Shown here: positions 28,941 to 31,516 of the stretch, piece by piece
Numbering within the stretch: the stretch's first letter is position 1
How the letters are laid out: each line of letters begins with the position of its first letter
Assembly (NCBI GenBank): GCA_026989535.1
Contig: JALSJD010000016.1
Coordinates: forward strand, 1-32,983
Length of the DNA stretch: 32,983 bases
Reading direction: 5' to 3'
Origin: Cyclobacteriaceae bacterium
GTDB taxonomy: Bacteria > Bacteroidota > Bacteroidia > Cytophagales > Cyclobacteriaceae
The notes under the pieces: generated by a model
The model's input: the letters and a program-made list of their open reading frames with translations, nothing else
Databases searched by the model: none
Told to the model about the DNA's origin: nothing
Program-made: the position numbers and the translations under genes

Positions 28941-29792
28941 ATGCGATTAAAACTAACCTTATTGCTCATCGTGTTAACCACCACGGTTTGGGCACAAAAA
29001 AGAAAAGCACCTTCTTCCTATAAAGATCCTTTTTTGGCAACCCAATGGTATTTAGGTTTTTTTGCAGGAGGTAATCTATCAAAAGCAACACCTTCAGCAG
29101 CTTATTACGGCTACGAACCCTTAAATTACGATGCTCGAGTAATTGGCAAAACTTATACAGGCCTAAAAAAGCTTGGAACACAGGCAGGGCTCGTCTTTAT
29201 GTTTTACACCAAAGGCTTTACCATTGGTCTAAAACCGGGCATTCACACCTACGAAGTAGAGCATATTACCAACGCCAACTGGAGCGATAGCAACGACCCA
29301 AACAACACATTGGAAATAAGTTATACCCATACCACTAATTTTAATTATTTAGAACTCCCCCTCACCGTACAATACGATTTAATGAAAGGGAGAATTAGGC
29401 CTTATATTGGGGTTGGAGGTTATTACGGCCTTTTACTCAATGCCAACCGCACCGTTCAACGCTCAGGCACCGATGCTGCTTCTGGTTCATCGGGCAGTTT
29501 TGTAAACACAGCCACCACCATTGGTGTTTCTGATTTATTTATAAAGTCTGCGCTGGGTATTAATGGATTTGTAGGCGTAAGTTACGACCCCGGTAATATT
29601 AGAATTACAATGGATGTGGGCTATAAACTTGGATTAAACAACATTACCAGCACCGAGAACAGGTACCTTAATAATGAGTTATCGGCCATTGGAGAAGCTA
29701 CCGATGACCTCTCCTTACAAAACCTCTACCTTAATTTTGGATTTGTATTTCCTCTTAAATTTATCAGTAAAAACTTTGACGCCATAAACTAA
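28941..29792 (+). CDS. PorT-like outer-membrane beta-barrel protein
   Basis: 283 residues with signal peptide MRLKLTLLLIVLTTTVWAQ. The mature protein shows the PorT/OMP_b-brl_2 pattern: LGFFAGGNLSKATP, TQAGLVFMFYTKGFTIGLKPGIHTYEVEH, FNYLELPLTVQYDLMKGRIRPYIGVGGYYG (a conserved family block at about 133-162) and GVSYDPGNIRITMDVGYKLGLNN. The start codon follows the DUF1501 stop with no gap. Related barrels serve the T9SS or adhesion, and this one probably works with the secreted DUF1501/DUF1800 pair, which is an inference from the operon. Confidence 0.88.
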   Translation: MRLKLTLLLIVLTTTVWAQKRKAPSSYKDPFLATQWYLGFFAGGNLSKATPSAAYYGYEPLNYDARVIGKTYTGLKKLGTQAGLVFMFYTKGFTIGLKPGIHTYEVEHITNANWSDSNDPNNTLEISYTHTTNFNYLELPLTVQYDLMKGRIRPYIGVGGYYGLLLNANRTVQRSGTDAASGSSGSFVNTATTIGVSDLFIKSALGINGFVGVSYDPGNIRITMDVGYKLGLNNITSTENRYLNNELSAIGEATDDLSLQNLYLNFGFVFPLKFISKNFDAIN

Positions 29793-29797
29793 TTACA

Positions 29798-31516
29798 ATG
29801 ATGACTACTAATGCTTTACTGAAAACAGACAATAAATTAAACGTCATTGCGAGCCTGCCTGCCGGCAAGGCAGGTGCAGCGTGGCAATCTCTAAATAAAA
29901 GATTGCGTCAGTCGCTCCTCCTTACCATTAACGTCATTGCGAAAATTTTTAGTTTCAAAAATTTGTGGCAATCTGAATATTATAATGAGGATGCCACAAA
30001 AACCATATTGTTTTTTAAGTTATTTAAGATTAGAATGAGTTTTTTCGCCTGCCTTGCCGGCCGGCTAGCATTGGCGGTTCCTTTTTTACAATCTTTATTA
30101 CGTCATTTCCCTACGCTGATCCGTCAACTAGGCGGATTCTGTTCTACCATTGACAGATTAAAGAGGGGATGCCGGAACAAATCCGGCAAAGTACAAAAAA
30201 GAACGGTTCCCCGCACTTGTTGCGGGGTCTCCATTTTTAAGGATGGGACAGGACATGTTTTCTGTCATTTTCCTACGCTGATCCGTCAACTGGGTGGATT
30301 ATGTTCTACCACTGGCGGAATTAATTTAGGTTTGAATTACAAAAGCATCAAATACATTATACTGCTGCTTGTTGCAGTAAGCTGCGATATTAGCAAAAAC
30401 GATGTTGTTCCAACCAATACCTTTACCAAAATTTACGATGACGACCGGTTTGAACAAGAATACTATCCACTAGATATTATTCAAACAACGGATGAGGGGT
30501 TTTTAATTTTATCAGAACTAAAAAACGACCAGTCCTTATTTACAACGGTGCTCGTAGTAAAAACAGATGCGATGGGTGCTATAATTTCTAGCACGCAAAT
30601 GGCTAGCCCTTATGTAATGCCCGTAAATGGCTGGCAAAAAATTGGCGAAAGCTACTATTTTGTGTGTATGGACGAAAACTCCACTACTGCCCAATTAGTA
30701 GCCGTAAGTGAAGAAGGCACCCTCGCTGATCCTGTGCCATTAAATGGCATAACCTACCCTTTGGCCGTAAATAGCGATGGTACACAATTTACTATTTTGT
30801 CGTATGATAATGGAAACGCAGAATCAGTTATTAGCGTTGCCACCACCACGGGCCAGATTAACCAACAAAAAGGTTATACGATTGGAGCTGGGGTAGATGT
30901 AGAAAAGCCAATCATTGACCATTTAACAAGAAATGGAGATATTTTACCCTTTCATGTTGGGCAAACAAGAGATGGACTATCCTATTTTAATGGGTTCTAT
31001 AATTACACATTTTCGTTGGTATTTACCAATTTTGGAGATGCCCCTACGGGTGTTTGCCAAGGGCAATTAAGCCAAGGTGGTATTAGCGAAGTGGCTAGTT
31101 TAGGCAATAATGTTTTTGGCATTGCTCGCTTTAATTTTGGTAATAATTACATTGCGCCTCTAGCCAACATCCCTACAAACTCAACCACATCCAGCACCGA
31201 TTTAGCAGGCAACACTTTTCCTGAAATAGAGAATAAATCGAAAGTAAAACTACTAGATGTAGGCACGGAGGGCAAATGGTTATACGCCACCACTACCCAA
31301 GCCAATCAAATAGTGCTGTATGCTTTTAACCAAACAGATGGCACCATTTTAGGAACGAGTTATTTAGGCAGTGGCAACCCTTACACCTTAGCTTCGGTAA
31401 CAACCACCCTAGATGGAGGTATTGCTGTGCTAGCTCAAACTTCGTTGGAAGGCAGGTTTAGAAGAATTGCCATTTTTAAAAGAGATAAGCAATTTTTGGA
31501 TGGCTTGATGAGGTAG
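29798..31516 (+). CDS. Lipoprotein of unknown function whose 5' end is a repeat island
   Basis: The reading frame runs 572 codons from ATG 29798, 5 bp after the barrel gene. Codons 16-172 are made of palindromic repeats (29842-30314) and read as low-quality sequence (VIASLPAGKAGAAWQSL, HFPTLIRQLGG twice). The true protein starts after that: at TTG 30332 (codon 179) begins LNYKSIKYIILLLVAVSC, a normal lipoprotein signal with C18, followed by about 375 residues with repeated sheet-rich units (DEGFLILSEL, DGTQFTILSYDNGNAESVI, LDGGIAVLAQTS) that suggest a beta-propeller surface protein. So the repeats probably lie between the ancient start and the signal peptide, or replaced the original ATG. It ends the operon before the terminator at 31552. 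Function unknown. Confidence 0.7.
   Translation: MMTTNALLKTDNKLNVIASLPAGKAGAAWQSLNKRLRQSLLLTINVIAKIFSFKNLWQSEYYNEDATKTILFFKLFKIRMSFFACLAGRLALAVPFLQSLLRHFPTLIRQLGGFCSTIDRLKRGCRNKSGKVQKRTVPRTCCGVSIFKDGTGHVFCHFPTLIRQLGGLCSTTGGINLGLNYKSIKYIILLLVAVSCDISKNDVVPTNTFTKIYDDDRFEQEYYPLDIIQTTDEGFLILSELKNDQSLFTTVLVVKTDAMGAIISSTQMASPYVMPVNGWQKIGESYYFVCMDENSTTAQLVAVSEEGTLADPVPLNGITYPLAVNSDGTQFTILSYDNGNAESVISVATTTGQINQQKGYTIGAGVDVEKPIIDHLTRNGDILPFHVGQTRDGLSYFNGFYNYTFSLVFTNFGDAPTGVCQGQLSQGGISEVASLGNNVFGIARFNFGNNYIAPLANIPTNSTTSSTDLAGNTFPEIENKSKVKLLDVGTEGKWLYATTTQANQIVLYAFNQTDGTILGTSYLGSGNPYTLASVTTTLDGGIAVLAQTSLEGRFRRIAIFKRDKQFLDGLMR
29842..30314 (+). repeat. Composite island of palindromic repeats inside an open frame
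   Basis: Parts seen: CGTCATTGCGA at 29842-29852 and 29932-29942; GTGGCAATCT at 29881-29890 and 29965-29974; the palindrome CCTGCCTGCCGGCAAGGCAG around 29854-29874 and a similar GC-rich block near 30048-30065; TGCCGGA-N5-TCCGGCA at 30169-30187; CCCCGCA-N5-TGCGGGG at 30209-30227; and a 51-bp repeat (30102-30152 and 30264-30314, 5 mismatches, each with GATCCG hairpin arms). All repeat offsets checked (90, 84, 162 bp) are multiples of three, and the 473-bp stretch has no stop codon in the frame of the gene. It is of the RPE/REP-like kind. Confidence 0.8.

Follow-up and report, generated by a model that had tools for sequence, protein, structure and literature searches.

An open-frame island of REP-like palindromes ahead of a lipoprotein signal peptide in a Cyclobacteriaceae bacterium and its sister species

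The CGTC-tagged REPs described by Di Nocera et al. in 2013 (PMC3733652) have been reported from five phyla, including Bacteroidetes, and consist of a CGTC head followed by ATTGC...GCAAT, with stems of 8-9 bp, loops of 4-5 bp and, in most cases, a fitting CCA tail. They form inverted pairs, predominantly head-to-head dimers, lie mostly in intergenic regions and are reported to lack a dedicated transposase. According to the same paper, they are also found inside open reading frames, at the N-terminus more often than at the end, with clusters in Thauera and R. conorii that code for between 43 and 82 residues; the RPE-6 and RPE-4 of R. conorii are equated with CGTC-1 and CGTC-4, and an N-terminal RPE-1 is stated to be expressed in vivo (section 15 of that paper). 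The words 'lipoprotein' and 'signal peptide' are absent from its main text. Fusions of the Rickettsia palindromic elements (RPEs) and MITEs fused in frame to host genes are both covered by a review (PMC10969869). Among the literature matches listed, of which PMC3733652, PMC2775950 and PMC2996958 come nearest, the portions of text covered held no case of repeats lying in frame before a signal peptide, and a text match for CGTCATTGCGAG, with which the repeat unit of the present locus begins, yielded plant microsatellites only.

The locus reported here lies in a window of 32,983 nt (the whole stretch of DNA that was analysed) from a genome of 3.82 Mb in 252 contigs (G000), in which DUF1800, DUF1501, outer-membrane barrel and lipoprotein genes follow one another (Table 1). 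The lipoprotein ORF is the last of this run and begins with an ATG at 29798, six bases past the stop codon of the barrel gene; the end of the barrel gene directly precedes the lipoprotein start in L001-L004 and L056 too. The conserved lipoprotein begins at about 30332, i.e. 178 codons inside the ORF, and no Pfam family was found in the ORF as a whole. A minus-strand ORF at the contig end (32728-32976) resembles the C-terminal part of an IS66-type transposase.

In their head, the start of their stem, the inverted partners found for part of the heads, their mostly intergenic location and the occurrence of cases within ORFs, the repeats of this island are like CGTC-tagged REPs; they are unlike them in the near absence of the CCA tail and in the 178 residues, with further repeats nested inside, that stand against the 43 to 82 of PMC3733652. 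As in Rickettsia, palindromic repeats lie in frame in a gene that appears functional, but the phylum is a different one, the insert precedes a cleavable export signal, and one intact gene is concerned among the loci examined, whereas many genes are hit in Rickettsia (PMC10969869). With the MITEs of that review, the locus shares non-autonomous repeats that add codons to a host ORF, although here neither a transposase nor a target-site duplication can be assigned. Stem-loop repeats are also tied to lipoprotein genes in the case of Borrelia IS605 (PMC2775950), but there they lie at the 3' ends of genes, whereas those of the present gene precede the signal peptide in frame. PARCEL repeats (PMC2996958) are likewise coding, have dyad symmetry and are present in lipoproteins among other proteins, but they are tandem repeats of 25 residues in the protein body, in contrast to the few non-tandem repeats ahead of the signal in the present case. 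Intragenic REPs, including N-terminal ones, are known; what is new is the place before a lipoprotein signal, the comparison with a sister species and the nested in-frame growth to 178 codons.

Between 29750 and 30400, direct repeats at spacings of 162, 90 and 84 bp were found together with four inverted-repeat pairs, which agrees with the palindromic repeats and the offsets that had been described for this stretch in a first-pass annotation; the longest repeat unit found has 61 bp (85% identical), and not the 51 bp named there. The island is composed of CGTC-headed, REP-like palindromes and of a second repeat family (element B). Sequence similar to the second dimer is present at G000:C111, and element B has 49 matches in the genome, the window copy included; four such matches each lie within about 1 kb at C88:17295-18195 and at C155:22227-22993. 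A 21-bp CCTGCC palindrome is nested in the first arm (29854-29874). A like insert occurs within a repeat arm of G004:C301 (L083) but is missing from the corresponding position of G000:C95 (L067), as would befit a small mobile element with the length of seven codons. When 29600-30500 was compared with Rfam, the one match, to a Bacillus-plasmid RNA, stayed below the threshold (17.1 of 31 bits) and was judged to be due to chance. A Bacteroidetes promoter pattern (TTTG, 17-23 bases, TAnnTTTG) matched twice in the window, compared with 2.67 matches expected by chance, and had no match in the island.

Table 1. Features of the repeat island and of the genes around it (window coordinates).
Feature	Position	Strand	Basis
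Outer-membrane beta-barrel protein, upstream gene	28941..29792	+	PF13568, E 8.7e-15
48-bp run identical in the sister species, spanning the barrel stop codon and ATG 29798	29754..29801	+	Sequence comparison
Lipoprotein ORF, 572 codons, with repeat-derived 178-codon N-terminal extension	29798..31516	+	Stop-free frame
Predicted peptide (example) from the extension 29798-30331: VIASLPAGKAGAAWQS
CGTC-headed dimer common to L001, first arm	29842..29892	+	49/51 bases identical to L001
21-bp CCTGCC palindrome nested in the loop of the first arm	29854..29874	+	Sequence
Same dimer, second (inverted) arm	29901..29924	+	29902-29924: 21/23 bases identical to L001
Second CGTC-headed dimer with long spacer, not in L001	29930..30077	+	AACGTCATTGCGA repeated at +90; 3' limit by eye
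Element B (second repeat family), not in L001	30102..30324	+	61-bp direct repeat at both ends
Type II signal peptide LNYKSIKYIILLLVAVSC; lipobox cysteine codon 30383-30385	30332..30385	+	Translation; lipobox by eye
Mature lipoprotein part, no Pfam family	30386..31516	+	dN and dS of the core against L001

The repeat unit reads CGTCATTGCGAG...GCAATC, with GCAATGACG as its inverted partner, i.e. a CGTC head is followed by a stem that starts with AT. Exact CGTCATTGCGAG sites number 18 in the genome (9 per strand) and reversed controls 0; among 43 heads at the loci examined, 22 are followed after 40-250 nt by a GCAATGACG partner that has no more than 1 mismatch, a count in which both heads of one dimer may be included. 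The bases that follow GCAATC in these 43 heads are TG (14), TC (7), CC (3), CG (1) and CA (1), with none within reach in the other 17, and a tail of the CCA type is present in 1 of the 26 heads that have GCAATC in reach. Because the CCA tail is nearly absent, no published family is claimed and the name 'CGTC-headed, REP-like' is kept. Matches to Y1_Tnp number 15 in the genome, and a CGTCATTGC-type site was found at 1 of 10 Y1 loci examined (C11), on one side only. On this contig, the distance between a Y1-type transposase ORF (30020-30379; 146 aa) and the CGTC-headed repeat at 31309 (L059) is about 0.9 kb.

The nearest relative is L001 (JAMOMJ010000397.1; contig C397 of genome G004), the protein of which is 86% identical. 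A tree of nine rows pairs the window species with G004 as its sister (93/94) and places G003 next (99/99). In L001, an ATG at the matching place after the barrel stop is followed by a REP-like dimer and then by a signal peptide that reads SNYKSIKYIILILFVASC in place of LNYKSIKYIILLLVAVSC, and the gene order matches on either side of the island. The extension of L001 comprises 61 codons ahead of the codon that matches TTG 30332 of the window, and is in frame and open. Since a MAFFT alignment of the whole island misplaced the signal-peptide region, segment alignments were used. The net length differences are 12 nt in the spacer (loop) of the shared dimer, which is shorter in the window, and 363 nt farther on, where the window is longer and L001 holds 23 unaligned bases; both are multiples of three. 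Identity to L001 amounts to 934/1179 in the core, 521/657 in the barrel part and 31/44 in the 44 nt before the repeat. The longest identical run among the ungapped stretches compared is the one of 48 bp that covers ATG 29798, and the runner-up has 23 bp. Across 393 aligned codons of the core (30332-31513), dN is 0.078 and dS is 1.72; judged from these rates, the core is evidently a living gene under purifying selection, with synonymous sites near saturation.

The lipoprotein gene is present in all five genomes of the genus, and it was compared with that of island-free relatives, as had been proposed at the outset. The repeat insertion is absent at the orthologous start in L002 (G003), L003, L004 and G002, all of which have an ATG and 17-18 residues ahead of the cysteine, and L001 carries a shorter insertion at the same site; the start of the G001 copy (L055) is also plain. 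In all, three congeners more distant than G004 are without the dimer. Among the 49 orthologue rows besides L001 (50 with it; L050, the match of which starts at residue 189, was left out), the first cysteine after residue 10 lies 11-46 residues past the farthest in-frame ATG, a distance that has no meaning for L012, where the farthest ATG lies far upstream of the signal. As far as the comparison of genomes goes, the two sister species evidently carry an insertion at a shared site, with a frame that is open in both, length differences that keep this frame and an identical start region. The simplest history would be a single insertion before the two sister species separated, with later net growth in the window lineage.

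Over 29798-30331, stop codons number 0 in the frame of the ORF, 12 and 14 in the other plus frames, and 12, 6 and 17 in the minus frames, so that the stop-free frame noted by the first-pass annotation is indeed the only open one of the six. Dinucleotide shuffles of this stretch were free of stops in 3 of 20000 cases, and those of the shorter L001 extension in 1099 of 20000. Real copies of the repeats were taken as a control as well, because the repeats carry a sequence bias of their own. The elements, defined by a BLAST match of more than 45 nt to any of seven element queries, were drawn from the exact-site loci, 30 of the 49 element B matches and 16 matches of the second-dimer search; identical copies were counted once, the window's own copy was removed, and sites such as L067, L083 and L087 fell short of the length criterion. 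This gave 53 other elements, all from G000 and G004. With the element in the centre, 0 of 300 frames were open over 534 nt, compared with 12 of 318 over 186 nt and 55 of 318 for the element alone.

The last of these figures would speak for an accidental open frame, as would the shuffles of the L001 extension and the other full-length copies of the 30144-30300 element (element B), 4 of 17 of which are stop-free in the corresponding frame. These element B copies imply that the shuffle figure for the window overstates the surprise. In addition, the spacer copy of the second dimer at G000:C111 appears, by eye, to be open in the corresponding frame and, taken together with the element B copies, it indicates that the openness partly reflects which repeats could survive here. 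The idea that the frame had been opened by a one-base deletion private to the window copy of element B was dropped, because this deletion is also found in copies L094 and L096. The codon usage score is -0.12 for the window extension, +0.19 for the core and -0.04 for the L001 extension; codon usage in the extension is thus not gene-like, as is to be expected for repeat-derived sequence.

Copies elsewhere bear on the same question. Among 55 distinct elements at the loci examined, the window's own copies left out, 4 lie to at least 80% within an ORF that has at least 50 codons outside the element. One of them is in the orthologue of L001, another in a fragment of 149 codons at G000:C76, and the remaining two are in ORFs with 95 and 87 codons. 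The genes that have at least 120 codons and start no more than 300 nt downstream of an element number 30 besides the present one, and none of these is open through the repeat just upstream. The expectation that an accidental frame would go along with copies in random frames elsewhere was half borne out: the copies are mostly intergenic and the genes downstream are closed to them, which makes the open frame at this locus an exception and not a by-product of the repeats. It appears quite improbable that the island represents intergenic repeats with an accidental open frame that was found by searching, or a misassembly. This explanation would require joint openness in two species, in a shared frame and with two length differences that are multiples of three; in addition, the 30 comparable genes and the matching gene order in L001 on either side of the island stand against it.

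At G000:C76:15712-15761 (L125 1245-1691), a same-frame repeat copy (VIAVLPAGKAGAAWQS) lies near the end of the 149-codon ORF, the start of which appears to resemble a RhuM-type protein. A search of 148 family genomes for the REP-encoded peptide returned matches only in the window and at this site, with G004 apparently lying outside the same set, and the DNA pattern of a head with a CCTGCCTG start was found in 10 of the 148 genomes. At 18 pattern loci, two of them from G000, an ORF check of both strands found frames of 83-462 codons that pass the repeat in 5 cases. The only one that reaches far past the repeat on both sides, an ORF of 186 codons on the opposite strand in L163, was rejected as spurious because it is overlapped by an ORF of 434 codons.

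It was also considered whether the insertion had moved the start of the gene. The first-pass annotation had let the likely real signal peptide begin with the TTG at codon 179; the position is correct by arithmetic, but the view of this TTG as the real start loses ground, because TTG 30332 aligns with TCG in L001. In-frame ATG, GTG or TTG codons of L001 before the signal are ATG 663, TTG 702 (just ahead of the repeat), and ATG 759, ATG 774 and TTG 780 (inside it), so that, wherever translation begins, an ordinary start codon would leave no less than the last third of its repeat within the translated part. If the start had moved, the old start region would now be an untranslated leader, and translation would begin at TTG 30332 in the window and at ATG 774 or 759 (or TTG 780), within the repeat, in G004; the repeats, if active, would be hairpins of the leader RNA, and the open frame would be a relic or due to chance. 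It is in keeping with such a history that TTG 30332 yields a compact and normal signal peptide, and that PMC3733652 cautions against taking REPs in annotated N-termini as translated, since most of them may not be. The island also folds better than shuffled sequences (z -7.4 in the window and -4.5 in L001), but palindromic repeats fold well anywhere, so that the fold says little. Two different new starts would be required, the frame is open in both species with both net length differences being multiples of three, and the region of ATG 29798 lies within the longest identical run. A moved start is thus rather unlikely, and the idea that the insertion shifted initiation to TTG 30332 has been weakened. 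The identity over ATG 29798 is read here as a sign of constraint on a start region that is still in use, and we infer that translation begins at this codon.

It should be noted that conservation is higher in the first repeat arm than in the coding sequence on its flanks, despite the near-saturated synonymous sites. That arm 1 surpasses the core in nucleotide conservation (49/51 versus 934/1179) is what a role as RNA or DNA, and hence a moved start, would predict. Coding alone does not explain this conservation, and a constraint on RNA or DNA or an exchange among copies may add to it. An intergenic repeat at G004:C301 and G000:C95, beside a homologous gene, is nearly identical between both genomes, so that repeat conservation by itself is no evidence of translation. 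These two loci were also considered as a second shared site; the flanks can be aligned, but they were not counted as such, because the more distant genes on the left are not the same and both copies failed the element filter. G004:C94 and G000:C48 share the flank on one side only.

Of the two possibilities first raised, an in-frame insertion as in the Rickettsia palindromic elements is now the better supported one, on account of the open insertion at the same site in L001, the frame-keeping lengths and the CGTC head. It is probable, on balance, that the repeats were inserted in frame before the lipoprotein signal, that they are translated from ATG 29798 and that the repeat piece is removed by signal peptidase II. 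Several circumstances speak against a translated extension: its codon usage is not gene-like, 178 residues ahead of a Sec signal are far from normal, the window has a TTG immediately before the signal peptide, some of the repeats are open in this frame by their own nature, a repeat can be shared and nearly identical in the two species without coding, and the assembly consists of 252 contigs, with repeats being prone to misassembly.

A history of the following kind is proposed, in which we infer that a single insertion took place in an ancestor, that ATG 29798 is used, that the protein is exported behind a long presequence and that signal peptidase II removes the latter. Before the window species and G004 separated, a CGTC-headed, REP-like dimer would have entered the gene in frame, behind the start codon and ahead of the signal peptide. 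The window lineage would then have gained another dimer as well as an element B copy, again with an unbroken frame. Initiation would have stayed at the ancestral ATG 29798, and the repeat-encoded residues (up to 61 codons in G004 and 178 in the window) would form a presequence ahead of the hydrophobic signal. This leader would be kept in the cytoplasm, because the front part of the signal (NYKSIKY) is positively charged, and would be lost once the protein is lipidated and cut ahead of the cysteine, as in the general course of lipoprotein maturation. As the lipobox cysteine lies behind the repeat piece, signal peptidase II would remove the whole piece, which would leave the mature lipoprotein unchanged and the insertion tolerated. 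Tolerance at this locus, as opposed to the 30 other genes downstream of repeats, fits a position at which added residues miss the mature protein.

One tentative generalization would be that the stretch between the start codon and a lipoprotein signal acts as a safe harbour, in which in-frame inserts are translated, cut off and discarded, so that repeats can pile up (from 61 to 178 codons) while the mature protein stays the same. In-frame palindromic insertions are best known from Rickettsia, and the present case comes from another phylum, with the same insertion available in a short form and a long form and with insert-free relatives for comparison. A simple reason for the tolerance is proposed, namely that the insert belongs to the part that is thrown away when the signal peptide is cleaved. 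Should the long form be exported, even a very long leader would not keep a lipoprotein signal from working.
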